This document shows, in pieces, positions 8,283-43,236 of a stretch of DNA of 45,971 bases (the stretch's first letter is position 1; each line of letters starts with the position of its first letter). Made by a program: the position numbers and the translations under genes. This stretch comes from Candidatus Zixiibacteriota bacterium (GTDB taxonomy: Bacteria > RBG-13-66-14 > B26-G2 > WVWN01). The notes beneath the pieces are model-generated. The model made no database searches. It had not been told where the DNA came from and saw nothing but the letters and a program-made list of their open reading frames with translations. The stretch is from positions 1 to 45,971 of the forward strand of contig JAUWLW010000024.1 in NCBI GenBank assembly GCA_030613505.1, written 5' to 3'.

Positions 8283-9671
8283 ATGGCCGAAAGATTGTAC
8301 ATACACGTTGACGGGAAGAATTACGGACCGCTTGCGCCCGAGGAAGTTACCCGGTGGGCGCGGGACGGCCGACTGACCGACGACGACTACGTTTGGGAGC
8401 CCGAGCAAAGCCAGTGGGTTCGCGCCGGCGAGCTCGGTTTCTTGAACGCGGTTTTGGGGAAGAAGGATGCGAGCTATCACGTCCGCATCGGCGCCGACAC
8501 CGTCGGCCCTATGGATATGGACGAGGTCGTTCGCCTCATAAACGAGAGCCGGTTCAACGCTATGGACTTCATCTGGCTCGACGGCGAAAGGCGTTGGGCC
8601 CGGGCGGGAGAAGTTTCGTTTCTGAGCCCCTACTTCCTCAAGCAGATCCGGGAGCAGGTCGAAGAGGCTCGCCTGGAGAAAGAGCTCGAGGAGCTGGAGG
8701 AGGTCGGCGAAAGCGGCGAGAGGCGCGAGCACGCTGTTGTGCCGGCGTGGCGCAAGGAGGTGCGCCGCGACTTGTCTCGCATCGACGACCGAAATTACCT
8801 GAAGACGCTGGTGACGATGTTCCTCGCTAGCATCCTCATTATTACCACGGTGAGTTTCGTGGAGGTGCCCGAGCCCGAGGAAATCCGGCCCGCGGAGGTT
8901 TTACGCCGCGTGGCCAAGTTGGTGGTGGACAGGCCGATAGAGGTTCCGCTCGAGCCGCTCGTCGAGTCGGAAGACATCATATCCGCTCCCGGGACCGATA
9001 CCAGCGCGGGCGGCGGCGGCGGCGGCAGCGAGGGCGGCGGCCAGGGCGGCGAGGACTACGCCTCGGTCGGCGTCGTCGGCCTTATCACTTCCATGGGCGC
9101 CGACGGCTCGGTCGCGGACCTTATGGGCGCCGGCAGCGACCTGGACATTATAGCCGGTAACATAGCCGGCCTTAAGACCAGCGGTTCCGGGACCGTGGGT
9201 CGCGGTACGGGCGGCGGCTTCGGCCCCGGAGGGCCGGGGTTGGGCCTGGGCGCCGGCGGCGGTACGGGCCTCGGCTTGCTGGCAGGTACAGCGAAGAGGG
9301 TCGGCCGCACCGAGATCAAGAAGGGCCGGGTTAGAGTCGCGCCGCCGGGCATAACCGGCGCCGCGGCTACCAACAGCCTGCGCTCGAGTGCCGTCATCGC
9401 CCGCATCGTGAACCAGCGCAAGGCGGGCATCGAGTACATATACAAGAAATACCTCAAGACTAACCCGACGATGGAGGGCAAGATCGTCGTCCGGTTTACC
9501 ATCGCGGCTTCCGGCGCCGTAAGGGCGTGCTCGGTCGTCTCGTCCACCATGGGTAATCCCGCTATGGAGCAAGAGGTATGCGGCCGCATAATGACGTGGC
9601 GTTTCCCGCCCATTGACGCGGGGGACGTTACGGTCGTGTACCCGTTCGTATTTTTCTCGGCGGGCGCGTAA
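8283..9671 (+). CDS. GYF_2-domain AgmX/GltJ-type TonB-like protein
   Basis: 462 residues. Two tandem GYF_2-like modules occupy about 1-55 and 60-115, each with the Y/G-P-[LM] start and a W-x-R-A-G-E ending. A charged coiled coil (about 118-150) and a membrane helix (about 178-195) follow. Next come a Gly-rich linker, the conserved GVVGLIT / VADLMGAGS / DLDIIA segment, and a C-terminal TonB-like AgmX/PglI domain ending in TWRFPPI and VVYPFVFF. It is paralogous to the preceding gene in the periplasmic half, while the cytoplasmic half was exchanged for GYF modules. GYF_2 domains usually bind proline-rich peptides, so it may dock a cytoplasmic partner. It is the last gene of the cluster, followed by a hairpin terminator. 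Confidence 0.87.
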   Translation: MAERLYIHVDGKNYGPLAPEEVTRWARDGRLTDDDYVWEPEQSQWVRAGELGFLNAVLGKKDASYHVRIGADTVGPMDMDEVVRLINESRFNAMDFIWLDGERRWARAGEVSFLSPYFLKQIREQVEEARLEKELEELEEVGESGERREHAVVPAWRKEVRRDLSRIDDRNYLKTLVTMFLASILIITTVSFVEVPEPEEIRPAEVLRRVAKLVVDRPIEVPLEPLVESEDIISAPGTDTSAGGGGGGSEGGGQGGEDYASVGVVGLITSMGADGSVADLMGAGSDLDIIAGNIAGLKTSGSGTVGRGTGGGFGPGGPGLGLGAGGGTGLGLLAGTAKRVGRTEIKKGRVRVAPPGITGAAATNSLRSSAVIARIVNQRKAGIEYIYKKYLKTNPTMEGKIVVRFTIAASGAVRACSVVSSTMGNPAMEQEVCGRIMTWRFPPIDAGDVTVVYPFVFFSAGA

Positions 9672-9693
9672 AAGCGCCCGGGTCGTTTGCAAA

Positions 9694-9717
9694 AGGCCGC
9701 CCGAGGGCGGCCTTTTT
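9694..9717 (+). terminator. Intrinsic terminator of the envelope-machine operon
   Basis: AGGCCGCC / GGCGGCCT form an 8-bp GC-rich stem with a CGAG loop, followed by TTTTTATT. It starts 22 bases after the stop of the GYF_2/AgmX-like gene and precedes a new promoter, so it separates the two transcription units. Confidence 0.9.
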
Positions 9718-9729
9718 ATTAAAATATTA

Positions 9730-9758
9730 TTGACACCGCCGCGCCTCTATGGTAGCTT
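9730..9758 (+). promoter_or_regulatory. Sigma70-type promoter for the chain-length gene
   Basis: TTGACA (9730-9735), a 17-base spacer and TAGCTT (9753-9758), directly after the terminator and about 60 bases before the ATG of the Wzz-like gene. The -35 is perfect; the -10 keeps TA and the final T. Confidence 0.55.
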
Positions 9759-9820
9759 CGATTTAAAATAATAGAAATTATACCCTCCGGCGCTCGGCGC
9801 CCTCCGCATCGGGTAAGAAT

Positions 9821-11677
9821 ATGACAAACGGTAATCAGGAGTTTACGATTTCGGACATTATCCGGACGTTGCGACGACAGTACAAGGTCGTTATCGGCGT
9901 CCCTTTGGTCGTTACGGTGGCCGCGGTCGTTTTCGCCGTCACGTTGAAGAATACTTATAGGGTCGAGGGGACGTTCGAGATAGGCCGCGTAATGGAGTAC
10001 CCGATCGAGGCCCCGCCTACGGTAGTCGACCGCATCTGGAGCAAACCTTTCTTGGCCAAAGTGGGTCGCGAACTGGGCATGAAGGAATCGCCCGCCCAAC
10101 TTCAGAATATGGTGCAGTTCGAATCCATCCATGCCGAGAGTAGGGATAGGCCGTTGACGCGGGGGATAAAAATAACAGTCCAATCGGACGACCCCGAAAA
10201 GAGCGCCAAGTTTGCCAAGGGCATACTGGACGCGGCGGTAGCCGAGCACGAAAAGGTATACGAAGAATCGGTAGCGGTCAGCGCCGGCTACCTCGAAGAG
10301 CTCGACGAAAGGGTGGCCAAGATCCGCGCCCAGATCGACCGCGGCCACGAGGATATATCGCGGTTGATGGCTACCGGCCGCGTCAACCAGGTGGAGTTAT
10401 CGTATCTGGCGAGTTACGTCGAAGAGAAGGAGAGCTACATCCTTCACCTGGAAGAGATAGCGTACGATTTGCGGAATAAGCTCGGCAAAGAGATATATAC
10501 TTCCCCGACGCGGATCAAGGTGGAACCGATACCCCCCCAAGCGCCGTCGGGCCCGGACCGTCGCCGTATTATTCTATTGGCCTTCGCCATATCTTTCGCG
10601 TTGGGCATAATAATCGCGTTTTTCTTCGACCGGGCGTCCGGCGAGGAACGCGAAGCGCGCGCTCCAAACGAGAACGAAAAAAAAAAGCGGCCCCCGGCGG
10701 TAGAACCGGAACCGGAGCCGGCCCCGGAGCCGACGCCGATCGCTCCGGCGCCTGAGCCGGCCGGCGGGGAGCCACCGCGAGTACGGTCCCCAGAGGTAAA
10801 TCGCTTGCTCGAACAAGGTAACTTAACGCTACCGGACTACTGGCGGATCTTACGGAGCCAGGCGTGGATAGTGGGTGTCACGCTGGTCCTGGGTTTGGCT
10901 TTGGGGTTGATCTACGGCCTCGCCAAGCCCCGCGAATACCAGACCGACTTCGTCATATCTACCGGTATCGTAGGTGACCATTGGCTCCATAGCCCGATGT
11001 TGATAGAGGAACAGTGTGCGTCGCATTGGTTCTTGAACGAACTCTCCAACCGGTTGAACAGGAAATACGACGTCTTCGAGCTCCAGGATATGGTCGAGGC
11101 CGAACTCGTAATGACGCCCACCAAGGGCCTTACCCGCGAGTTGAGGATTACCGTCAGCGCGGAATCGCCGGACGATTGCTACGCGCTGGCGAACAATTTG
11201 GCCCAGCTCCTGGAGGAGGCCGACCGCGAGGATTACGAGAAAACTCATGGGATGTTCGAGAGTTACCTTGGCGACCTCGAGAAGGTCCTGGACCGCCTGA
11301 CCGGGGCGCCGGCCGGGCTGGAGCCGTTGGCTTTGGCGCCGGGCCTGGCGGTATACCCCCCGGACGAGGAGACCGAATATCCGGGTGGGGCGCAGGTGTA
11401 TTCCCTCTTTTCGCGGTCGATACCGTACGAGGATAACCCGTACGCCATCTCGGGTCTGGCCCTTTTCCAGCAGGTTTACGTGGACACCTATATCAAGACG
11501 CGAAGTCCGGTCTTCTCCCAACCGACCACCGTTATAGTACCCCCGTTAAAGCCGACCCAACCCGAGGGCCCCGGCCCGGTGAGTATCGTTTTAATAGTGC
11601 TATTCGTCTCGCTGGTCCTCGGCATTACGTTGGCCGCGGTAAACTACCGATTGCGACAAGCCAGGGCCGGGACGTAA
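9821..11677 (+). CDS. Tandem double Wzz-like chain-length/polysaccharide co-polymerase
   Basis: 618 residues built from two Wzz-like halves. Each half begins with an I-L-R-x-Q/x-A-x-I membrane entry and has a TM1, a periplasmic alpha/beta region with a coiled coil, and a TM2. Membrane helices lie at about 22-42, 252-272, 355-373 and 580-605. Pro-rich PxxP-like motifs (IPPQAP and PPLKPTQPEGP) precede each second helix, as in Wzz. The halves are joined by a cytoplasmic Pro/Glu-rich linker (about 285-330). No Walker motifs of a fused tyrosine kinase are present. The first half keeps the usual length; the second has a longer insert. It probably controls the length of a polymer made by the adjoining ligase/polymerase-like protein. 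Single-copy Wzz is normal, so the fused duplication is unusual. Confidence 0.8.
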   Translation: MTNGNQEFTISDIIRTLRRQYKVVIGVPLVVTVAAVVFAVTLKNTYRVEGTFEIGRVMEYPIEAPPTVVDRIWSKPFLAKVGRELGMKESPAQLQNMVQFESIHAESRDRPLTRGIKITVQSDDPEKSAKFAKGILDAAVAEHEKVYEESVAVSAGYLEELDERVAKIRAQIDRGHEDISRLMATGRVNQVELSYLASYVEEKESYILHLEEIAYDLRNKLGKEIYTSPTRIKVEPIPPQAPSGPDRRRIILLAFAISFALGIIIAFFFDRASGEEREARAPNENEKKKRPPAVEPEPEPAPEPTPIAPAPEPAGGEPPRVRSPEVNRLLEQGNLTLPDYWRILRSQAWIVGVTLVLGLALGLIYGLAKPREYQTDFVISTGIVGDHWLHSPMLIEEQCASHWFLNELSNRLNRKYDVFELQDMVEAELVMTPTKGLTRELRITVSAESPDDCYALANNLAQLLEEADREDYEKTHGMFESYLGDLEKVLDRLTGAPAGLEPLALAPGLAVYPPDEETEYPGGAQVYSLFSRSIPYEDNPYAISGLALFQQVYVDTYIKTRSPVFSQPTTVIVPPLKPTQPEGPGPVSIVLIVLFVSLVLGITLAAVNYRLRQARAGT

Positions 11678-25803: not shown

Positions 25804-27351
25804 GTGGTCCGTCTATACGAATATCAGGGTAAAGGACTCCTGCGGCGGGCGGGCGTGAAGGTCCCGCCGGGACGCGCCGCACGCTCGGCCGCGGAGGCCA
25901 CGGTCATAGCGCGGGAGATCGGCGCGCCGGTCGTCCTGAAGGCCCAGGTATTCATAACCGGCCGGGCGGCCGTGGGCGGCATTAAGTTCGCCGAAAACGC
26001 TATGGCTGCGGAGCGCGTCGCCGGCCGCGACTTTTTGGGCCGCACGTTTAGAGGCCAACGTTGCGACGTCGTCCTCGTCGAGCGGAAGTTGAACGTCGCG
26101 CGCGAGATGTACGCCGCGGTCGTCGTCGACAACGACGCCCGGATGCCCCTCCTTATATTCTCGTCCGTCGGCGGCACCGGCGTCGAGGAGATCGCGGCCA
26201 ACCATCCGGAGGCGCTGGTGAAAAGATACCTCGACGCGGCGCGCGGCCTATACGGCTATGAGGCGCGGGAGCTGGCGCGGCGCGCGGGCCTTCGGGGCCG
26301 GGAGCTCGTGGCCGTGGCGGACGTCCTGGTGAAGCTGTGGCGCGTCGCCCGCGACGCCGAGGCCCGGGCGGCGGAGATAAACCCGCTGGTCGTAACGGAC
26401 GAGGGCGAGGTCGTGGCCGCGGACTGCCGCGTTACGGCGGACGACTACGCCGTTTACCGGCACCCGGAGCTCGACGTGCAGGTCGCCCGCGAGTTCGACC
26501 GGCCTCCCACCGAGTTAGACCTTATAGCCTACAACGTCGAGAAGGACGACTACCGCGGCACGTTTTATTTCGTACAGCTCGCGGAGGGCTTCGCGCCGGA
26601 AGACCGCTGCGTCGCGCTCCACGGCGCCGGCGGCGGCGGCTCGATGATGTCGATGGACGCCGCGCTGGCCGAGGGTTTCAAGGTCGCCAACTTCTGCGAT
26701 ACCTCCGGCAACCCGCCGGCGAGCAAGGTTTACCGCGCGGCGTGCATCCTGCTGGCCCAGAAGAACGTCGTCGGCTATTTCGGCTCCGGCTCCGGCGTCG
26801 CCAGCCAGGAGCAGTTCCACTCCGCGCGGGGCCTGGTAAAGGCCTTCCGCGAGGTTTGGCTCGACGTTCCCTGCGTCGAGCGGCTGGGCGGCAACCAGGA
26901 AGAACGCGCCATCCGGATACTGACCGAATATACGAAGGACTTGCCCGCGCCGGTGGAGTGCTACGGCAAAGATACGCCGGCGCGGCATTGCGCGCGGCGG
27001 CTGCGCGAGCTCGTGGACGGTTACGATTACGGCGTTCGTCACGAGAAGCCGCCCGGCCTGCCGCACAATTCGTCGTATTCTTTCCGGACCGTTACCGGCG
27101 GGACTGTCTCCTACGATTACGCGCGATGCGAGGGCTGCGATTCCAAAGTATGCGTAGCGGATTGCGTCCCGCAAATCCTCAAATTGGAGGACGGCAGGCC
27201 GGCCTTAAATATCGGCGCCGAAGAGGCGGCGCGGGGCCGCTGCACCGAGTGCCTGGCGTGCGAAGTGGAGTGCCGCGCCCGGGGCAACGGCGGCGGCCGG
27301 ATAACGCTGCCTATCGCCGGGTTACACGAGTATTTAAAAAAGACGCGTTGA
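25804..27351 (+). CDS. ccsA: Citryl-CoA synthetase large subunit-like ATP-grasp protein fused to a 2x[4Fe-4S] ferredoxin domain
   Basis: 515 residues from GTG. The first 390 or so are an acyl-CoA synthetase beta (SucC/CcsA/ACL) subunit: ATP-grasp N-domain, metal-binding EINPL (191-195), then a CoA-ligase flavodoxin-like domain. Two signatures lean to the ATP-citrate-lyase/citryl-CoA branch rather than SucC: the GAGGGGSMMSMD stretch and the DTSGNPPASKVY motif (299-310), where ACL has SGAP. A C-terminal extension (about 425-510) carries eight cysteines, C442-x2-C445-x4-C450-x3-C454 and C480-x2-C483-x2-C486-x3-C490, like a 2x[4Fe-4S] ferredoxin. Known CcsA makes citryl-CoA from citrate, ATP and CoA with CcsB. 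The fused iron-sulfur domain is not part of that description. SucC remains an alternative. Confidence 0.75.
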   Translation: MVRLYEYQGKGLLRRAGVKVPPGRAARSAAEATVIAREIGAPVVLKAQVFITGRAAVGGIKFAENAMAAERVAGRDFLGRTFRGQRCDVVLVERKLNVAREMYAAVVVDNDARMPLLIFSSVGGTGVEEIAANHPEALVKRYLDAARGLYGYEARELARRAGLRGRELVAVADVLVKLWRVARDAEARAAEINPLVVTDEGEVVAADCRVTADDYAVYRHPELDVQVAREFDRPPTELDLIAYNVEKDDYRGTFYFVQLAEGFAPEDRCVALHGAGGGGSMMSMDAALAEGFKVANFCDTSGNPPASKVYRAACILLAQKNVVGYFGSGSGVASQEQFHSARGLVKAFREVWLDVPCVERLGGNQEERAIRILTEYTKDLPAPVECYGKDTPARHCARRLRELVDGYDYGVRHEKPPGLPHNSSYSFRTVTGGTVSYDYARCEGCDSKVCVADCVPQILKLEDGRPALNIGAEEAARGRCTECLACEVECRARGNGGGRITLPIAGLHEYLKKTR

Positions 27352-27352
27352 T

Positions 27353-28261
27353 ATGTCAATCTTAGTTAGTAAAGAGGATAAAGTCCTCGTGGCCGGCATT
27401 ACCGGCCGCGAAGGTCGGGCCCGCACGCGCCTTATGAAGGGCTACGGGACCAACGTCGTCGCCGGCGTCTCCCCGGGCCACGGCGGCGAGGAAGTCGAGG
27501 GCGTTCCGGTCTTCGATACGGTGGCCGCGGCGGTCGAGGCGGTGGGCGAGGTTTACGCGGCCGTCGTCTTCGTGCCCGGGCCGGCGGTGAAGGAGGCCGC
27601 GGTGGAGGCCTTCGCCGGCGGCGTCAAGTTGGCCGTGCTGGTCCCCGACCGGGTGCCGATATGGGACGCGATGGCCATCGACGCGGCGGCGCGCGAACAC
27701 GGCGCGCGATACGTGGGCCCCAACACGTTGGGCGTGCTCTCGGTGGACAAGGCCGTGCTGGGTATGGTCGGCGGCCGGGCGGAGTCGGCGCGGGAGTGGT
27801 TCAAGCCCGGGCCGGTCGGCATCTCGTCTCGCTCCGGAGGGATTACGTCGTCGCTGGCGTATTACCTCGGCCGGGCGGGCGTCGGCGCGACCACGCTGGT
27901 GCATGTCGGCGGCGACCCTATCGTCGGCACGCCGCACCAGGACGCCGTTCGGTTATTCCAGGAGGACGCCGATACGAAGGCCGTGGTGATGTTCGGCGAG
28001 ATAGGCGGCAGCCAGGAGGAGAAGGTTGCCGAGCTCATCGCCGAAGGCGTGGTTACCAAGCCCGTGGTGGCGTTCATCGGCGGTAAGGCCGCGACGGAGG
28101 GGACGCGCTTCTCCCACGCCGGCGCGATCGTCGAGGGCGGCCGCGGCACGTACGAGGGCAAGGTGGGGGCCCTGCGCGAGGCGGGGGCCATTGTCGTGGA
28201 CGACTACGATAAGGTCGCGGAGTACACGTTGGGAGTTTTGAAGGACCTGGGCGAAGTATGA
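27353..28261 (+). CDS. ccsB: Citryl-CoA synthetase small subunit-like protein (SucD/CcsB family)
   Basis: 302 residues, start one base after the upstream stop (translationally coupled). SucD-like order: CoA-binding Rossmann half with GITGREGR and YVGPNTLGVLS, then the ligase half with the phosphorylated histidine His255 in FSHAGAI. The motif SSRSGGIT (158-165) carries SGG as in ATP-citrate lyase, where SucD usually has SGT. Together with the large subunit it should form the heteromeric synthetase that activates citrate (or succinate) with ATP and CoA via a phosphohistidine. The co-encoded lyase at 30542 favours citrate. Confidence 0.78.
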   Translation: MSILVSKEDKVLVAGITGREGRARTRLMKGYGTNVVAGVSPGHGGEEVEGVPVFDTVAAAVEAVGEVYAAVVFVPGPAVKEAAVEAFAGGVKLAVLVPDRVPIWDAMAIDAAAREHGARYVGPNTLGVLSVDKAVLGMVGGRAESAREWFKPGPVGISSRSGGITSSLAYYLGRAGVGATTLVHVGGDPIVGTPHQDAVRLFQEDADTKAVVMFGEIGGSQEEKVAELIAEGVVTKPVVAFIGGKAATEGTRFSHAGAIVEGGRGTYEGKVGALREAGAIVVDDYDKVAEYTLGVLKDLGEV

Positions 28262-30541: not shown

Positions 30542-31318
30542 ATGGCCGATAAATGGTTTACCAACATAACGGACGTAGCCCCCAACAAGATACGCCTCCG
30601 CGGCTATCCCATCGAGGAGCTGATGGGCCGCAAGAGCTTCGCCGAGGTCGTATGGCTCGCGCTGCTCGGCGAGCTGCCGTCCGAAACCGAGGGTAAGCTC
30701 CTCGACGCCATACTGGTTTCGTCGGTGGACCACGGCGTCACGCCGCCGTCGACGCTGGCCGCTCGAGCCGCGGCCTCTACCGGCGCGCCGGTGAACGCCG
30801 CGCTGGCCTCGGGCGTGCTGGCCGTCAACCGCTTCCACGGCGGCGCGGTCGAGGGGTGTATGAACGCGCTGGCCGAGGCGCTAGCCGAGATGAAGGAGAC
30901 GGGCGTCTCGCGCGAGGAGGCCGCGGCCGCGATAGTGGAGCGTTACCGCGAGGCCGGAAGGCGGGTGGAGGGGTTCGGCCACCGCCTCCACGACGACGAT
31001 CCGCGGGCGGCGCGGCTCTTCGCGTTGGCGGAGGAGCTGGGCCTGGCGCGAGAGGGTATCCCGATGGCGCGCGCGCTCGAGGCGGCGCTGGCGAACGTTA
31101 CCGGTAAGGTTCTGCCGCTAAACGTCGACGGCGCCATCGCGGCGTGCCTTTTCGATCTGGGTTTCGAGCCGTACGTCGCCAACGCGTTCTTCATAATGGC
31201 GCGCATGCCCGGGTGGCTGGCGCACGTTCTCGAGGAGCGGGCGCGCGAGCGGCCTATGCGGCGCATCGAGCCGTCGGCGTGGGCGTACGACGGCCCGGGC
31301 GAAAGACATTTAACCTAG
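30542..31318 (+). CDS. ccl: Citryl-CoA lyase (citrate synthase / ACL C-domain family)
   Basis: 258 residues, much shorter than citrate synthase (about 430) and the size of the Hydrogenobacter citryl-CoA lyase. SD AGGAGCGG before the ATG. It contains DHGVTPPST (His64), the GFGHRLHD motif (His147) and LNVDG (Asp196), the three catalytic residues of the citrate synthase family, and resembles the C-terminal part of ATP-citrate lyase. It should cleave citryl-CoA to acetyl-CoA and oxaloacetate, or run backwards. A short, synthase-like enzyme beside CcsA/CcsB-like subunits fits the two-step citrate-cleavage route. A citrate synthase role is less likely because the N-terminal helices are missing. Confidence 0.85.
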   Translation: MADKWFTNITDVAPNKIRLRGYPIEELMGRKSFAEVVWLALLGELPSETEGKLLDAILVSSVDHGVTPPSTLAARAAASTGAPVNAALASGVLAVNRFHGGAVEGCMNALAEALAEMKETGVSREEAAAAIVERYREAGRRVEGFGHRLHDDDPRAARLFALAEELGLAREGIPMARALEAALANVTGKVLPLNVDGAIAACLFDLGFEPYVANAFFIMARMPGWLAHVLEERARERPMRRIEPSAWAYDGPGERHLT

Positions 31319-31331
31319 CTCGAGGTGCGAT

Positions 31332-31865
31332 ATGGAAGAAAAAATAAGAGAGCTCTTGCCGGAGTTGGCGGAGATAGAGGACGGCGCGCTGCGCGATAAG
31401 GTCGTCGCGGCCTACGAGGCCGCGCTCGAGCGCGGCGGCTGGCAACCGGAGGATATGGCGCGGATGCCGTTTACGCTGCTCCTCGAGCCGTGCCCGGCGA
31501 CGTACCTCGAGCACACCCGCGCCGTGACGCGATGCGCTGTCGCCGTAGGGGCCGCGATGGCCGAGGCGTACGGTTCCCGCCTGAATATCGACCGCGACCA
31601 CCTGCTCGCCGCGGCGCTACTGCACGACGTCGGCAAGCTTTTGGAGTACCGCGAGGAGGGCGGCGGGTTCGTCAAGTCGGAGCTGGGCCGCATGCTCCGG
31701 CACCCGTTCTCCGGCGCCGCGCTCTGCTACGAGTTCGGCCTGCCGGCGGCGGTGGTCCACGTCGTCGCGACGCACGCCCGCGAGGGCGAGGGCTCCCGGG
31801 TGACGCCGGAGGCGATAATTATCCACCACGCCGACTTTATGAATTTCGAGCCGTTTAAATTGTAA
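31332..31865 (+). CDS. HD-domain phosphohydrolase
   Basis: 177 residues. Contains the metal-binding HD pattern: an upstream His in LEHTRAV (about 57-63), LLHDVGKLL with His-Asp, then HPFSGAAL and VATHAREG, with a late HHADFMN near the C-terminus. This is the HDc fold used by phosphohydrolases acting on nucleotides or phosphorylated cofactors. The substrate is unknown. It begins 14 bases after the lyase stop and ends nine bases before the hydro-lyase gene, so it belongs to the operon; a link to citrate metabolism is only contextual. Confidence 0.85.
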   Translation: MEEKIRELLPELAEIEDGALRDKVVAAYEAALERGGWQPEDMARMPFTLLLEPCPATYLEHTRAVTRCAVAVGAAMAEAYGSRLNIDRDHLLAAALLHDVGKLLEYREEGGGFVKSELGRMLRHPFSGAALCYEFGLPAAVVHVVATHAREGEGSRVTPEAIIIHHADFMNFEPFKL

Positions 31866-31873
31866 GGCGCGAT

Positions 31874-33130
31874 ATGCCCCAAACGTTCGCCGAGAAGATT
31901 TTTTCGCGTAAGGCCGGTCGCCCGGTGGCCGCGGGCGAGATAGTCGTGCTCGAGCCGGACCGGCTGCTATCCCACGACAACACCGCGGCCATCGCCGCGA
32001 CCTTCGGCGAGTTCGGCCTGGAACGGATTGTGGACCCGGATAAGGCCGTTATCGTTCTGGACCATTGCGTCCCGGCGGCCACCGAGAAGTACGCCCAGAA
32101 CCACCTCGAGATCCGCAAGTTCGTGGAAGCGAACGACATCGAGCATTTCTTCGACGTGGGCGAAGGAGTGTGCCACCAGGTATTCGCGGAGCAAGGGTTC
32201 GCGCTGCCGGGCGAGCTGGTCCTGGGGGCGGACAGCCACACGACGACGTACGGCGCTTTGGGCGCGTTCGCCGCGGGCATCGGGCGGACCGAGATGGCGG
32301 CGCTCTACGCCACCGGCGAGTTGTGGCTCCGGTGCCCCGAATCGCTTCGGCTCGAGGTGACGGGCGAGTTCGGCGCCGACGTATACCCCAAGGATTTGGT
32401 CCTTTATATAATCGGCGACCAGGGCGCGGACGGCGCGTTGTACCGGTCGGTGGAGTTCGCCGGGCCGACGGTGGCCGCGACGTCGCCCTCGGGCCGTATG
32501 ACGTTGTGCAACATGGCCGCGGAGATGGGCGCCAAGAACGCGTACGTCGCCCCGGACGAGAAGACGCGCGCCTTCCTCGCGGGGCGCGCGCGGCGCACGT
32601 TCGACGAAGTCTTGCCGGACGACGGCGCCGCGTACGAGCGGACGCTCTCCTACGACGTCGCCGGTCTCGAGCCCCGGGTGGCGTGCCCGCACACGGTCGA
32701 CAATGTAGTGCCGGTTGGCGAGGCGGCGGGGACGCGCGTGGACCAGATCGTCGTCGGGACTTGCACCAACGGCCGCATCGACGACCTGGTGGTGGCGGCG
32801 AATATCTTGCGGAACCGGCGCGTGGCACCGGCGGTGCGGGTCCTCGTCTTCCCTGCCAGCCGGGCGACGTACCTGGAGGCGCTCGGCATCGGCGCGCTGG
32901 CGACGCTGGCGGCGGCGGGCTGCATAATTATGAACCCGGGCTGCGGGCCGTGCCTGGGCGCCCACGAGGGGATATTGGCCGCGGGCGAGGTCTGCCTCTC
33001 GACGGCGAATCGCAACTTCCGCGGCCGCATGGGCTCGACGGAGGCCGAGGTCTATTTGTGCTCGCCGGCGACGGCGGCGGCTTCGGCGCTCCACGGTCGC
33101 ATCACCGACCCCCGGACGGTAAGGGCGTGA
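31874..33130 (+). CDS. LeuC-type hydro-lyase large subunit (aconitase/IPM isomerase/homoaconitase family)
   Basis: 418 residues, the size of archaeal-type LeuC/HacA. Fe-S ligands are Cys297 (GTCTNGR), Cys357 and Cys360 (PGCGPC). Active-site signatures SHDNT (33-37), DHCVP with Asp63-His64 and GADSHTTTYGALGAF (about 118-132) are intact. The family hydrates cis-aconitate-like substrates; homologues serve 3-isopropylmalate, homocitrate, 2,3-dimethylmalate or citrate. The paired small subunit is 120 bases downstream, separated by a tiny membrane-peptide gene. Placement behind citryl-CoA lyase suggests citrate/isocitrate isomerisation (aconitase role), but leucine or lysine pathway roles are not excluded. 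Confidence 0.85.
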   Translation: MPQTFAEKIFSRKAGRPVAAGEIVVLEPDRLLSHDNTAAIAATFGEFGLERIVDPDKAVIVLDHCVPAATEKYAQNHLEIRKFVEANDIEHFFDVGEGVCHQVFAEQGFALPGELVLGADSHTTTYGALGAFAAGIGRTEMAALYATGELWLRCPESLRLEVTGEFGADVYPKDLVLYIIGDQGADGALYRSVEFAGPTVAATSPSGRMTLCNMAAEMGAKNAYVAPDEKTRAFLAGRARRTFDEVLPDDGAAYERTLSYDVAGLEPRVACPHTVDNVVPVGEAAGTRVDQIVVGTCTNGRIDDLVVAANILRNRRVAPAVRVLVFPASRATYLEALGIGALATLAAAGCIIMNPGCGPCLGAHEGILAAGEVCLSTANRNFRGRMGSTEAEVYLCSPATAAASALHGRITDPRTVRA

Positions 33131-33134
33131 GGGT

Positions 33135-33263
33135 ATGGAGTCGTTAGTGTATTTAATCGTAATCATCTTGGTAGTCCTGGCGTTTTTGCTCTTCGTCGGC
33201 CTCGGCGCCGTGATGCTGACGACGTGGTTGTCGCTGCGGGGGAAGCGAGATGATAAAAGGTAA
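33135..33263 (+). CDS. 42-residue single-TM small protein between hydro-lyase subunits
   Basis: A 42-codon frame starting four bases after the large-subunit stop and running 14 bases into the start of the small subunit, in a different frame. The product starts MESLVYLIVIILVV, has one hydrophobic helix (about 5-32) and a basic/acidic tail (SLRGKRDDKR). GTGAGGG just before the ATG is a usable ribosome binding site. Gene order and spacing would normally put the two subunits back to back. It could be a membrane anchor for the hydro-lyase, a translational-coupling leader or chance; no homology is claimed. Confidence 0.45.
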   Translation: MESLVYLIVIILVVLAFLLFVGLGAVMLTTWLSLRGKRDDKR

Positions 33264-33744
33264 GGTCTGGAAGTACGGCGACGACGTCAACACCGACGTC
33301 ATCTTCCCCGGGCGGTACACATATACGGTAACGGACCCGGGCGAGATCGCCTCCCACGCCCTCGAGGACCTGGACCCGGCATTCGCCAAGAACGTGAAAC
33401 CCGGGGACGTCGTTGTCGCCGGCAAAAACTTCGGCTGCGGCTCGAGCCGCGAGCAGGCGGCGCTGTGCCTGAAGTACGCCGGCGTGGCCGCGGTAGTGGC
33501 GGCGTCGTTCGCGCGCATATTTTTCCGCAACGCCATCAACGCCGGCCTGCCGACGGTCGCGGCGCCCGAAGCGATACCACATATAAACGCCGGCGACGAG
33601 ATAACCGTCGATTTCCAGGTGGGGGAGTTGACGGCCGCGGACGGCTCGAGTTATAAATTTACGGCGCTGCCGCCCGAAGTGATCGGCATTCTCGAGGCGG
33701 GCGGCCTGGTGCCGTACGTCAAAAAGGAGTTGGCGAATAAATGA
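33250..33744 (+). CDS. LeuD-type hydro-lyase small subunit
   Basis: 164 residues, normal for the short archaeal-type LeuD/HacB. It has DDVNTDVIFPGRY (11-23), KNFGCGSSREQAA and ARIFFRNAINAGL, the conserved swivelling-domain motifs. The substrate-recognition loop after GRY reads TYT, whereas characterised methanogen pairs have YLRT (homoaconitase) or YLVY (isopropylmalate), so the substrate cannot be read from it directly. It is the partner of the large subunit at 31874; ATG follows the GCGAG box of the small-peptide frame. Confidence 0.86.
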   Translation: MIKGKVWKYGDDVNTDVIFPGRYTYTVTDPGEIASHALEDLDPAFAKNVKPGDVVVAGKNFGCGSSREQAALCLKYAGVAAVVAASFARIFFRNAINAGLPTVAAPEAIPHINAGDEITVDFQVGELTAADGSSYKFTALPPEVIGILEAGGLVPYVKKELANK

Positions 33745-34282: not shown

Positions 34283-35077
34283 TTAAACGTGCGCGGCGAC
34301 GGCAGCTTCACCTCGTATAGTTACCGTAACGTCCTCGAAGGGTATGTCCTTGCCGGACGCTTCGAGGGCTTCTTTCGCCGCCTGAACCAGGCCGAAGCAA
34401 CAGGGAACCTCCATATGCAGGACCGTGACCTTGCGGACGTCGTTCTCGCGTAGTATGGCCGTCAGCTTGTCGCGGTAGAGCTCGACGTCGTCGAACTTCG
34501 GGCAGCCGATGACGATGGCCTTGCCGCGGAGGAAGTCGGAGTGGAAAGCGGCGTACGCGATGGGCGCGCAGTCCGCGGCCACGAGGAGCTCCGCGTTCTG
34601 GAAGTACGGCGCGTTGGGACTGACGAGGTAGAGCTTGACGGGCCACTGGCCGAGTTCCGATTTCAACTTTCCCTCTAAGGTCGCCTCCGGCTCGACGCAT
34701 TCTTCCTCCGCTTTTCGCCTTAGGTCCATAGTACGCGCGCCGGGGCAGCTGAAGGTGTGGCCGCCGGCGCCGTGGCTCGCGGCCGGCGTCTCTTCGTGCT
34801 CGTGGCGGTGAGCGCCCCCTTCGCGACCGAGCTCTTGGAGGTGTCCTTCCACCGCGGCGGCGTCGAACCCCTCGGCCGGCCGTTCCTCGATAGTAATAGC
34901 GCCTTGCGGGCAATCGCCCAGGCAGGCGCCCAGGCCGTCGCAATAGATTTCGCTCACGAGACGGGCTTTGCCGTCGACGATTTGGATGGCGCCTTCGGCG
35001 CAGGACGGTACGCACAGGCCGCAGCCGTCGCATAGGTCTTCGTCTATTTTAACTATTTTGCGGGTTACTTTAGCCAT
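34283..35077 (-). CDS. Ferredoxin-domain protein with His-rich linker
   Basis: 264 residues. The N-terminal ferredoxin domain (about 1-65) has one full CDGCGLCVPSC motif and a second CDGLGACLGDCP in which one Cys is Leu, a pattern seen in this family. A linker rich in His/Glu (HRHEHEE) and a FSCPGAR motif follow, then a C-terminal alpha/beta domain with IGCPKFDD and VPCCFGLV, adding more cysteines. It is likely cytoplasmic, binding Fe-S clusters and perhaps another metal. It is transcribed from a promoter with an FNR-like site and lies after the CRP/FNR-type regulator gene on the same strand, so it is probably the regulator's direct target. Homologues are common in anaerobes; the reaction is unknown. 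Confidence 0.85.
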   Translation of the reverse strand: MAKVTRKIVKIDEDLCDGCGLCVPSCAEGAIQIVDGKARLVSEIYCDGLGACLGDCPQGAITIEERPAEGFDAAAVEGHLQELGREGGAHRHEHEETPAASHGAGGHTFSCPGARTMDLRRKAEEECVEPEATLEGKLKSELGQWPVKLYLVSPNAPYFQNAELLVAADCAPIAYAAFHSDFLRGKAIVIGCPKFDDVELYRDKLTAILRENDVRKVTVLHMEVPCCFGLVQAAKEALEASGKDIPFEDVTVTIRGEAAVAAHV

Positions 35078-35978: not shown

Positions 35979-37097
35979 ATGGCTAAGTATAAAATTGCGT
36001 GGCTGCCGGGCGACGGGATAGGCCGCGACGTTATGGAGGCGGCGCGCCTCGTGCTGGAGCGCCTCGCGCTCGACGCCGAGTACGTCCCGGGCGACATCGG
36101 CTGGGGGTTCTGGTGTGCGGAGGGCAACCCGCTGCCCGAGCGCACCAAGGAGCTTATGCGCGGGACCGATTGCGCGCTCTTCGGCGCCATAACCTCCAAA
36201 CCCAAGGACGAGGCCGCACGCGAGCTCGCGCCCGAGCTCCAGGACAAGGGCTGCGTCTACTATTCGCCCATCGTCCGTTTGCGCCAGGAGTTCGACCTCT
36301 ACGTGAATATGCGGCCTTGCAAGGCGTACGCCGGCAACTCCCTCAACTACCGCGACGACGTCGACCTCGTCATCTTCCGCGAGAACACCGAGGGCCTGTA
36401 CTCCGGCGTGGAGTGGTCTCCCGTACCGCCGGCGGTGTACGACTGCCTTATGGCCAACCACAAGAAGATGGCGGCCTTCGCGGGCGTCCCGCTGGACGAG
36501 CTCGCCATCTCGACGCGCATCATGACGAAGAAGGCTTGCGCGCGCATCGTACGCGCCGCGTTCGAGTTCGCTACGAAGAAAGGCCGCAAGTCGGTAACGA
36601 TGGTGGAGAAGCCCAACGTCCTGCGGGAGACCGGCGGCCTTATGGTCCGGGCCGCGCGCGAGGTGGCGAAGGACTACCCGGGTGTCGAGCTGTGGGAGGC
36701 CAACGTCGACGCCATGGCGATGTGGCTCGTCAAGAACCCGCAGGACTACGACGTGCTGGTGGCGGAGAACATGTTCGGCGACATCATCTCGGACGAGGCG
36801 GCGCAGCTCGTCGGCGGCCTGGGGTTCGCCTGCGCCGGCAACATAGGCGACGACTACGCCGTCTTCGAGCCCACGCACGGCTCGGCGCCCAAGTACGCGG
36901 GCCAATATAAAGTCAACCCGACGGCGATGCTCTTGGCGACGCGGATGATGCTGGAGTACCTGGGCGAGAAGGATAAGGCCGCGGCGTTGGAGAACGCCGT
37001 CGCCGCCGTCATCGCCGAGGGCCGCGTCCGCACGTACGACATGGGCGGCGCAAGCTCCACCCTGGAGATGGCGGAGGCGGTGGCGGCACGGGTTTAA
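35979..37097 (+). CDS. Isocitrate / homoisocitrate / isopropylmalate dehydrogenase family enzyme
   Basis: 372 residues, one-domain type. Conserved LPGDGIGRDV, RENTEGLYSG, the Y/K catalytic region, Asp-rich metal site (DIISDEAAQL) and HGSAPKYAG. The substrate loop reads SPIVRLRQEFDLYVNMRP, close to archaeal-type homoisocitrate/isopropylmalate enzymes but with the isocitrate-type Ser. APKYAG matches the Lys-Tyr pair of NADP-dependent isocitrate dehydrogenases rather than the Asp-Ile of NAD types. In this neighbourhood isocitrate is the simplest substrate, giving 2-oxoglutarate, but specificity is not settled. Own promoter; hicBA follow within 20 bases. Confidence 0.85.
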   Translation: MAKYKIAWLPGDGIGRDVMEAARLVLERLALDAEYVPGDIGWGFWCAEGNPLPERTKELMRGTDCALFGAITSKPKDEAARELAPELQDKGCVYYSPIVRLRQEFDLYVNMRPCKAYAGNSLNYRDDVDLVIFRENTEGLYSGVEWSPVPPAVYDCLMANHKKMAAFAGVPLDELAISTRIMTKKACARIVRAAFEFATKKGRKSVTMVEKPNVLRETGGLMVRAAREVAKDYPGVELWEANVDAMAMWLVKNPQDYDVLVAENMFGDIISDEAAQLVGGLGFACAGNIGDDYAVFEPTHGSAPKYAGQYKVNPTAMLLATRMMLEYLGEKDKAAALENAVAAVIAEGRVRTYDMGGASSTLEMAEAVAARV

Positions 37098-37721: not shown

Positions 37722-38621
37722 ATGACCACTAAAGATAAGCCGGCGCTCGAGCCTCCGGCCATACGCATCGACAAAGTAAAGTGCACCGCCTGCAACATCT
37801 GCGTCGAGGCGTGCCCCCAGGAAGTCTACGAGCTCGCCGAATTCGCCGTCGTGGCGCACCCGGAGCGGTGCATCAGCTGCGGCCACTGCGTCGCGCTGTG
37901 TCCGGAGGACGCCGTCGAACACGAGGCTTACCCGGAGGGCACGATTAAGGCCCTCGGCGCCAGGAAGGTCCCCACCGCGGCGGCGCTGGAGACGCTCTTG
38001 CGCGCCCGGCGCTCGGTGCGCAACTTCAAGGACAAACCGGTTTCCCGAGAGGCGGTGGAGGAGCTGGTGCGTCGGGCGCTGTCGTCGTACCCCAGCGTAC
38101 ACAACCTCCGGCCGGTTCGGGTGCTGGCGCTGAGCGAGGCCGAGCGCATCCGCCGCGTCCGCGACGCGACGGCGGAGTGGTACCGGACGGCGGTGCGGCG
38201 CCTAAAGAACCCCATCCTCCGCACCGTCTACGGCGCCGTGGCCGAGCGCGAGGACAAGCTGGGGGCGTACGCCCTGGTGGACGATATGAAGCGGCTGGTC
38301 GAGGCGTACGACGCCGGCCGCGACGACCTCTTCCACGACGCGCCGGTAGTCCTCGTCCTCCACGCGCCGGTGGCGACGGTCATGCCGCGGGAGACGGTGC
38401 ACTACGCCGCGGCGCAGCTCGTCATGATGGCGACGGCCATGGGCCTGGGGACGTGCTTCGTAGGCTGGTTGACCGCGGCCGCGGCCCGCAGCGGCGATGT
38501 CAGAGAAGCGCTTGGCTTGCCGGAAGACTACGCCGTCTACGCCGCGTTAGCTCTCGGTTACCCCAAATATAAATACCGCTGCGCCATAGGCCGCGGCGCG
38601 CCCGAAATCGAGTGGCGCTAG
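37722..38621 (+). CDS. Nitroreductase with N-terminal 2x[4Fe-4S] ferredoxin domain
   Basis: 299 residues. The N-terminal part (about 10-70) has two complete motifs, CTACNICVEACP and CISCGHCVALCP. The rest is a nitroreductase fold with the FMN-binding ARRSVRNFKDKPV motif, a His-Asn at the SVHNLRP position and GLGTCFVGW. Ferredoxin-coupled nitroreductases transfer electrons to FMN, then to an unsaturated or nitro substrate. The physiological substrate is unknown. The gene stands alone after a 138-base gap that contains no clear gene. Confidence 0.9.
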   Translation: MTTKDKPALEPPAIRIDKVKCTACNICVEACPQEVYELAEFAVVAHPERCISCGHCVALCPEDAVEHEAYPEGTIKALGARKVPTAAALETLLRARRSVRNFKDKPVSREAVEELVRRALSSYPSVHNLRPVRVLALSEAERIRRVRDATAEWYRTAVRRLKNPILRTVYGAVAEREDKLGAYALVDDMKRLVEAYDAGRDDLFHDAPVVLVLHAPVATVMPRETVHYAAAQLVMMATAMGLGTCFVGWLTAAAARSGDVREALGLPEDYAVYAALALGYPKYKYRCAIGRGAPEIEWR

Positions 38622-41428: not shown

Positions 41429-42679
41429 GTGGCGCAAACTATTATAGAAAAGATCATCGCCGCCCATTCCGGGGACGACGTCTTTCCCGGTGCGACGGTT
41501 TGGCTCGAGCTCGACGTGCGCGCCGCGCGCGACTTCGGCGGCGCCAACGTCGTCAAGAACTTCGACCGACATTATACCTCGATGCCGGTGGCCGACGCCG
41601 GCAAGACGTTCTTCACCTTCGACTGCGTCGTCCCCGCCAAAGATATCCCCTACGCCAACAACCAACAGCTGTGCCGCGAGTTCGCGGCCCGACAGGGTAT
41701 TAAAGTATACGACGTCGACGCCGGCATAGGCTCGCACGTCCTGATGGAAGAGGGGCTTGCGCGCCCGGGCGGAACGGTAGTCAACACCGACAGCCACATG
41801 AACATAGTGGGCGCCATCGGCTGCCTGGGCCAGGGTATGGGCGACGCCGACATAGCCTTCGCCTTCCGCACCGGCCGCACCTGGCTCGAGGTCCCGCCCT
41901 CCGTCAAAGTTGTACTGAAGGGTAAATATAAATGGCCGACTACGGCCAAGGACGTGGCGCTCGCGATGCTCCGCGAGTTCGGCTCGAGCGGCCTATTGGG
42001 CAAGGCGGTGGAGCTGTACGGGCCCGCGGCGGAAGTCCTATCGGTCGAGGAGAGGATTACCGTAGCGTCGATGGCGACGGAGATGGGGGCCATCGCCATA
42101 TTCGTTCCCCCCAGTGAAGAAGTGCTCGCGTGGTGCGAGGGGACCGCGGGGGTCGAAGTCGGGGGCGTCTACGCCGACGAGGACGCCTCCTACGAAGCGA
42201 CGTACGAGCTCGACGTCGACGGCCTCGAGCCGCTGGTGGCGTGCCCGCCGTCGCCGGCGGACGTCAAAGCCGTGAGTGAGGTCGTCGGCAAGGAAATAAA
42301 CTCGGCCTTCTTCGGCTCGTGCACCAACGGTCGCATCGACGACTTCCGCGCCGTCGGCCGCTTGATGTCGGGCCGGCCCGTCGCCGCCGGCGTAATGGCG
42401 TACGCCGTCCCGGCTACGCGGCGGGTTTACGGCGCGATGTTGGTGGAAGGCTTGACCGCGGAGCTCTTCGGGGACGGGTTCGTCGTGTCCAACGCCGGTT
42501 GCGGCGGCTGCGCCCAGGGCCAGATCGGCATGACGGGCAAGGACGAGGTCCAGGTTTCGACCTCCAACCGTAACTTCCCCGGCAAACAAGGCGCCGGCGA
42601 GACGTACCTGTGTTCGCCGGTCACGGCCGCGGCCTCGGCTCTTATGGGGACTATCACCGACCCGCGGGAGGTGGCCTGA
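41429..42679 (+). CDS. Divergent LeuC-type hydro-lyase large subunit with altered active site
   Basis: 416 residues from GTG. Fe-S ligands are intact: Cys298 (GSCTNGR), Cys358 and Cys361 (AGCGGC). The two usual histidine motifs are changed. The S-H-D site reads A-R-D (33-35), and D-H-x-x-P reads DCVVP with Cys66. The G-A-D-S-H-T site reads NTDSHMNIVGAIG (119-131). Family members need these residues for dehydration chemistry, so substrate or mechanism probably differs from the copy at 31874. Its small subunit follows at three bases. A homoaconitase or dimethylmalate-dehydratase role is possible; none can be proved here. Confidence 0.82.
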   Translation: MAQTIIEKIIAAHSGDDVFPGATVWLELDVRAARDFGGANVVKNFDRHYTSMPVADAGKTFFTFDCVVPAKDIPYANNQQLCREFAARQGIKVYDVDAGIGSHVLMEEGLARPGGTVVNTDSHMNIVGAIGCLGQGMGDADIAFAFRTGRTWLEVPPSVKVVLKGKYKWPTTAKDVALAMLREFGSSGLLGKAVELYGPAAEVLSVEERITVASMATEMGAIAIFVPPSEEVLAWCEGTAGVEVGGVYADEDASYEATYELDVDGLEPLVACPPSPADVKAVSEVVGKEINSAFFGSCTNGRIDDFRAVGRLMSGRPVAAGVMAYAVPATRRVYGAMLVEGLTAELFGDGFVVSNAGCGGCAQGQIGMTGKDEVQVSTSNRNFPGKQGAGETYLCSPVTAAASALMGTITDPREVA

Positions 42680-42681
42680 TC

Positions 42682-43236
42682 GTGGCAAGGACCACGGTTA
42701 TAGAGGGCCGCGTATGGCCCGTCGTCGACGCCTCGGGGACGTACCTGAACGACGTCGATACGGACCAGATCTACCACAACGCCTACATTGCGGTAACGGA
42801 CGTGGACGAGATGGGTCGGTACGCCTTCGGCAACCTCGCCGGCTGGGGGGATTTCCCGACGAAGGCGGAACCCGGCGACATCCTGGTGGTGGGCGCGAAC
42901 TTCGGCGCGGGCTCGAGCCGACAGCACGCCGTCGACTGCTTCCGTACGCTGGGCGTCGCCGGCGTCGTGGGCATCTCCTTCGGCGCGATTTACAAGCGAA
43001 ACGCGGTAAACGCCGGGTGGCCTCTCGTCGAATGCCCGGACTTGCTAAAGCTGGAGCTCGCGGCCGGCGACGTTTTGCGGGTAAACTTTAAGACGGGCGA
43101 GCTGGAAAACCGCACCCGCGGCAAGCTCGCGGCGGCGAGGCCGTTCTCGCGCGTGCAGATGGACGTTTACCTGGCCGGCGACCTCTTCGCCTACGGCTCG
43201 AGCCTCGGCGGTAAAAGCGCCGGGCGCCTAAGATGA
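42682..43236 (+). CDS. Divergent LeuD-type hydro-lyase small subunit
   Basis: 184 residues from GTG 42682, eight bases after GGGAGGTGG. DVDTDQIYHNAYIAVTD replaces the usual NTD-x-I-x-P-G-R-Y motif (no Gly-Arg), and the swivel motif reads GANFGAGSSRQHA in place of FGCGSSREHA. It is longer at the C-terminus than the copy at 33250. Both features match a large subunit with non-standard active-site residues, so the pair is likely a specialised hydro-lyase. Its stop overlaps the end of the convergent lysine-dehydrogenase gene. Confidence 0.8.
   Translation: MARTTVIEGRVWPVVDASGTYLNDVDTDQIYHNAYIAVTDVDEMGRYAFGNLAGWGDFPTKAEPGDILVVGANFGAGSSRQHAVDCFRTLGVAGVVGISFGAIYKRNAVNAGWPLVECPDLLKLELAAGDVLRVNFKTGELENRTRGKLAAARPFSRVQMDVYLAGDLFAYGSSLGGKSAGRLR

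Follow-up and report, generated by a model that had tools for sequence, protein, structure and literature searches.

What role could a ferredoxin play at the end of an acyl-CoA synthetase, and is the junction real? We examined a 45,971-nucleotide contig of a Candidatus Zixiibacteriota bacterium (JAUWLW010000024.1, assembly GCA_030613505.1; hereafter, the window). An initial annotation made from its sequence had described a single gene in which a citryl- or succinyl-CoA synthetase large subunit continues into a domain with two four-cysteine motifs, and had offered several roles for that domain.

An acyl-CoA synthetase with a ferredoxin tail

The gene was found as described. At 25804..27351 (+), a GTG start opens one continuous 515-aa frame with zero internal stops, encoding a CcsA/SucC-type ATP-grasp, ADP-forming acyl-CoA synthetase large subunit followed by a dicluster ferredoxin domain. 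The synthetase core (residues 1-405; 25804..27018, +) comprises an ATP-grasp and a C-terminal ligase domain with the loops GGGGSMMSMD, SGNPPASK and SGSGVASQEQ; homology extends to residue ~405, close to the end near residue 400 first proposed. Pfam ATP-grasp_2 matched residues 3-197 (E = 1.7e-50), an ATP-citrate-lyase citrate-binding match at residues 272-392 fell below threshold, and a sequence search of the PDB returned first Thermus SucC (3ufx, 1.9e-60) and second Hydrogenobacter citryl-CoA synthetase (6hxq, 1.5e-42).

Beyond the core lie a variable linker (residues 406-424; 27019..27075, +) and a dicluster ferredoxin-like domain (residues 425-515; 27076..27348, +), the latter assigned from a sub-threshold Fer4_9 match, AlphaFold2 modelling and ferredoxin-fold matches. 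Its cysteines occupy exactly the positions initially reported, in cluster motif I (C442-x2-C445-x4-C450-x3-C454; 27127..27165, +) and cluster motif II (C480-x2-C483-x2-C486-x3-C490; 27241..27273, +). Both motifs are invariant, all eight cysteines being present in 81 of 81 fusion sequences. Among these sequences the core averaged 63% pairwise identity, the linker 17% and the tail 56%; in the tail, non-cysteine residues, e.g. LPIxGL, are strongly conserved too.

When Pfam Fer4 models were run on the tail alone, all scored below the gathering score (best 19.4 bits against a cut-off of 27). The textbook spacing of a ferredoxin cluster motif is Cx2Cx2Cx3C, from which motif I departs (Cx2Cx4Cx3C). 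Because of this atypical spacing and the sub-threshold Fer4 scores, the domain would be missed by profile annotation; the low scores are likely one reason why the fusion could go unnamed.

AlphaFold2 modelled the whole chain with a pLDDT of 92 and a pTM of 0.85, the tail remaining above 85 throughout; the sole stretch below 50 comprised residues 331-333, which lie in a loop that aligns to the citrate loop of CcsA. Modelled alone, the tail reached a pLDDT of 94. Using this tail model, VIA-align returned a list consisting mostly of ferredoxin-fold proteins, though with a Z of 7.5 at most, and Foldseek gave no significant match (E above 0.05 throughout), the best being a weak one to the Rpo3 ferredoxin-like domain (E = 0.057).

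Recurrence of the fusion in other genomes

A frameshift or assembly error joining two genes at about 27060, raised in the initial annotation as a possible refutation, is excluded with near certainty, since order-level relatives and 80 public loci of separate records contain the same fusion at full length. We found it in 3 of 3 same-genus genomes and 1 of 1 same-order genome (identities of 89, 82, 76 and 68%), as well as at 53% identity in a genome related only at the domain level; no instance was seen in two further genomes sampled from the class or in seven others from the phylum. Scanning GTDB species genomes yielded 371 relatives, for the best 80 of which we give the named distribution. The matches of all these 80 begin at residue 1 or 3 and extend to residue 504 or beyond. 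The annotation had proposed seeking the fusion in relatives; each of the four order-level ones has it, as do the best 80 of the 371. The records of these 80 carry names of more than a dozen phyla, some of which were given by submitters and may be incorrect: Coatesbacteria, Zixibacteria, Marinimicrobia, Calditrichota, KSB1, Aminicenantes, Chloroflexota, WOR-3, Hydrothermota, Acidobacteria, Gemmatimonadetes, Cloacimonetes, Thermodesulfobacteriota and others. A scan of viral contigs gave no match. The dicluster ferredoxin domain built into a central-metabolism acyl-CoA synthetase is a real fusion.

In one relative (locus L124) the fusion gene looks frameshifted. Reading this locus as a split ferredoxin was rejected because the ferredoxin reading frame and the C-terminus of CcsA overlap, and it was left out of the split count as a frameshifted fusion.

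Relationship to SucC, CcsA and ATP-citrate lyase

Phylogenetically, the ferredoxin-bearing proteins form their own clade (99/96), which lies nearer SucC than CcsA with moderate support (92/88). Hydrogenobacter CcsA and tail-less Chloroflexota CcsA group together at 100/99; as CcsA is a long branch, its position is less certain. The ANNTR and RR residues of the CcsA citrate loop, kept in 3/3 and 2/3 tail-less Chloroflexota CcsA sequences, respectively, were not found in the fusion protein, which has SGVASQEQ and RLGG instead. An E/D-x-D-(Y/H)-RG insertion and a GNPP motif are common to the fusion and CcsA and absent from the canonical SucC rows compared, with the qualification that a few fusions deviate at the GNPP residues and that rows L011 and L013 also have the insertion. 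Judged by the tree and the citrate-loop residues, the fusion protein is not a Hydrogenobacter-type synthetase. Membership of SucC, as assessed with the curated NCBIfam model TIGR01016, was not found either (234.7 bits, below the cut-off of 375.55), and a second, separate SucC-like gene is present in 28 of 30 fusion genomes, which argues that the fusion is not simply the succinyl-CoA enzyme.

Among characterised systems, the CcsAB synthetase and lyase of Hydrogenobacter thermophilus (6hxq, 6hxp) are alike in combining a subunit pair with a lyase, in the E/D-x-D-(Y/H)-RG and GNPP motifs and in the strong similarity of the lyase itself, but the fusion belongs to a separate clade, is without ANNTR/RR and has a ferredoxin. 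A tail-less CCS operon (L139; CcsA of 414 aa, CcsB and CCL), from a class shared with some fusions, has the same three-gene organisation, whereas its CcsA is without ferredoxin, carries ANNTR and RR, and joins Hydrogenobacter CcsA in the 100/99 group. SucCD (3ufx) provides the best overall fold and sequence match and the nearest, moderately supported, sister group, yet is without ferredoxin and without the GNPP/DxRG motifs. ATP-citrate lyase (6hxj, 6hxi and human ACLY) would share the proposed chemistry, and an AclA-like SucD-lyase fusion exists in L124 and L130; however, identity over the aligned core is 18-23% and no ferredoxin was noted in ATP-citrate lyase. Its architecture, a lyase fused to the SucD-type subunit, was not found in the window, where the genes are separate. 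Searches of open-access papers yielded no description of a ferredoxin-bearing synthetase clade; the annotation, too, knew of no described synthetase of this class with a built-in ferredoxin.

Separate ferredoxin genes and the role of the domain

In deeper branches, the ferredoxin is encoded by a gene of its own. Anaerolineae loci L112, L126, L127 and L128 have sucC, a stand-alone ferredoxin ORF and sucD in tight order, L125 shows the same order, and in L129 the ferredoxin directly precedes sucD, with sucC ~2.4 kb upstream. Five of these loci (L112 and L125-L128) have Asp at the C483 position of motif II. Because the separate-gene loci branch below the fused clade in the tree, the simplest history would be that the ferredoxin began as a separate subunit and was fused once. 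Every checked member of the ferredoxin clade has a ferredoxin, either fused or as a separate gene next to sucD. Of 199 genomes of one class (Anaerolineae), 17 have the ferredoxin, and these coincide fully with the 17 whose core match exceeds 230.7 bits, the score of the best tail-less core match in that class (G282, CcsA-type clade).

The genes alongside these separate ferredoxins differ. L112 and L126 adjoin an HMGL lyase with PrpF and LeuCD; L127 adjoins a methylmalonyl-CoA mutase and a glyoxalase-family protein, as do L125 and L128 by sequence resemblance; and L129 adjoins a CitE-type lyase, then an HD gene (9519-10124). With such different lyases or a mutase alongside, no single redox partner explains the ferredoxin, and the gene neighbourhoods give no support to tying it to one. 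Since it follows the synthetase through different partners, the ferredoxin is probably intrinsic to the synthetase, serving its assembly, stability or redox gating, and not a docking site for one particular oxidoreductase. The dicluster ferredoxin-like domain of archaeal Rpo3, which affects RNA polymerase assembly, offers a precedent in a non-redox enzyme, although the host protein is unrelated (PMC5300874).

Rpo3 also illustrates that Fe-S domains occur in non-redox proteins (PMC5300874) and, together with the conserved LPIxGL residues, lends some weight to a purely structural domain, whose clusters would steady the fold and the subunit interface with neither sensing nor electron transfer. 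We consider this somewhat unlikely, since a second cluster, with eight ligands kept over wide divergence, arguably exceeds what a simple staple would need.

It is unlikely, too, that the tail is an electron-transfer or docking module for an OGOR, PFOR or Hdr-type complex in a reductive TCA metabolon, in which acyl-CoA and low-potential electrons would be handled together. The eight invariant cysteines would fit an electron carrier, and there are several pyruvate/2-oxoglutarate oxidoreductase-family genes per genome; some Anaerolineae fusion loci include divergent HdrA-like and KorC-like genes (named from sequence), and Desulfobacterota fusion loci have fumarate reductase and fumarase upstream (named from sequence except one fumarase subunit). 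Such redox genes nevertheless adjoin only a minority of fusion loci, the synthetase reaction has no redox step, and the same module accompanies the paralogues beside the HMGL lyase, CitE-type lyase or methylmalonyl-CoA mutase. Docking to 2-oxoglutarate:ferredoxin oxidoreductase, suggested initially, is accordingly not specifically supported.

Gene neighbourhood and proposed reaction

Directly after the fusion, 27353..28261 (+) encodes a small subunit of CcsB/SucD type (Pfam CoA_binding and Ligase_CoA) with the phosphohistidine His255 and Glu216, both conserved in all 53 alignable rows. Neighbours were counted by tblastn among eligible loci, i.e. those long enough to show the gene in question. 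A SucD-type subunit lies downstream of the fusion in 66 of 73 such loci (≤150 nt away in 55), and a citryl-CoA lyase is encoded with the fusion in 52 of 65. The window's own lyase (30542..31318, +) scored above the NCBIfam NF004869 cut-off, had H. thermophilus citryl-CoA lyase as its top PDB match (6hxp, E = 1.2e-50) with the next match far weaker, and retains the citrate-synthase-type residues His64, His99, His147, Arg155, Asp196 and Arg221, numbered on what we take to be the citrate-synthase motifs. It is followed by an HD-domain protein (Pfam HD; 31332..31865, +), the gene for which is found in 43/58 eligible loci and holds a fixed position between lyase and aconitase across many phyla. Next come LeuC-type (31874..33130, +) and LeuD-type (33250..33744, +) aconitase large and small subunits, both identified with Pfam and NCBIfam, the LeuC-type gene being present in 30/48 eligible loci. 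An ORF at 35979..37097 (+), named from sequence as an isocitrate-dehydrogenase-family enzyme, has a homologue in 21/39 eligible loci and is 95% identical in one same-genus genome.

Further along are a second LeuC-type large subunit (ORF at 41429..42679, +) and a second LeuD-type small subunit (42610..43236, +; start uncertain, overlapping the preceding gene), recognised by homology to the first pair. The window therefore holds two LeuCD-type pairs (31874-33744 and 41429-43236), both of which may be aconitases. Genome G000 has a single HMGL-family gene, Re-citrate-synthase-like in appearance rather than LeuA-like. Within the window's genus, the gap between CcsB and the lyase contains MFS, low-molecular-weight phosphatase/ArsC-like and small nucleotidyltransferase-like genes, in an order kept in relatives. 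Also near the operon are a two-cluster ferredoxin fused to a nitroreductase domain (37722-38621) and a second ferredoxin-domain protein (34283-35077). A same-class relative without the ferredoxin fusion (G005) carries an orphan citryl-CoA lyase (L135, 7760-8542). For the succinate dehydrogenase/fumarate reductase flavoprotein, G000 gives a strong match (C96:5580-5957) and G001, G003 and G004 only weak ones of NadB-like strength, a disparity that points to strain variation or else to a foreign contig.

Two Anaerolineae genomes encode the SucD-type subunit and citryl-CoA lyase as one ORF of 565 or 575 aa, an AclA-like architecture (L124, 3374-5071, -; L130, 4717-6444, -). These SucD-lyase fusions and the frequency of the lyase uphold the citryl-CoA-type link made in the initial annotation, while a Hydrogenobacter-type CcsA with an added tail is at odds with the tree and the residues. 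The enzyme is most likely an ATP-dependent, ADP-forming synthetase that makes citryl-CoA from citrate. Because the CcsA citrate-site residues are replaced and the clade is nearer SucC, the choice of citrate draws on the neighbours, and several long fusion loci in which tblastn found no citryl-CoA lyase count against it. We regard it as improbable that the acid is instead 2-methylcitrate or similar, with a citryl-CoA-family lyase releasing oxaloacetate and another acyl-CoA: the citrate-loop residues are unlike those of CcsA, some loci have a PrpD-family gene after IDH and the deeper paralogues apparently act on other acids, but the operon's IDH and aconitase point to citrate/isocitrate, and the closest characterised lyase is a citryl-CoA enzyme.

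From knowledge of the SucCD/CcsAB family and the conserved catalytic residues, we propose that citryl-CoA synthesis would begin with phosphorylation of His255 of the SucD-type subunit by ATP; the phosphate would then move to citrate and be displaced by CoA, giving citryl-CoA, which the neighbouring lyase would split into acetyl-CoA and oxaloacetate. Synthetase and lyase together would operate near equilibrium and could also work in the direction of citrate. Desulfobacter ATP-citrate lyase runs in that direction with ATP gain, according to Moller et al. 1987 as cited in PMC9768450. Full-length citrate-synthase-family proteins were present in 20 of the 32 genomes examined, nearly all of which are fusion genomes. 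Coatesbacteria have an HMGL-family protein that is presumably Re-citrate-synthase-like, for which NCBIfam gave no match over cut-off. Given these proteins, citrate cleavage seems likelier than synthesis. Taking Coatesbacteria without citrate synthase as proof of a citrate-forming role is weakened by the same HMGL-family protein.

The C-terminal domain, predicted to carry two Fe-S clusters, would act as an intrinsic module of the synthetase that aids subunit assembly; activity would probably be conditional on redox state or on the clusters being intact, sparing ATP when conditions do not suit citrate cleavage. Our best explanation overall, a citryl-CoA synthetase with an intrinsic Fe-S module for assembly or redox gating, has in our estimation about an even chance of being right. 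The more specific idea that redox-active clusters gate ATP-dependent citrate activation through the reduced-ferredoxin pool is put forward tentatively, and we hold it to be rather doubtful.

Implications

A widespread clade of SucCD-type acyl-CoA synthetases with a ferredoxin has apparently gone undescribed. It provides a defined, testable example in which an Fe-S module belongs to an enzyme with a non-redox reaction, and for which the separate-gene paralogues and tail-less relatives are natural controls. Were redox gating true, low-potential electrons would directly determine which way the citrate step runs, and at what cost, in many uncultured anaerobes, and the family would represent a redox-controlled class of acyl-CoA synthetases. 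If the enzymes are citrate-activating, citrate cleavage in MAGs of Aminicenantes, Zixibacteria, WOR-3, KSB1, Marinimicrobia, Anaerolineae and Coatesbacteria would escape annotation pipelines designed to detect ATP-citrate lyase or Hydrogenobacter CCS.
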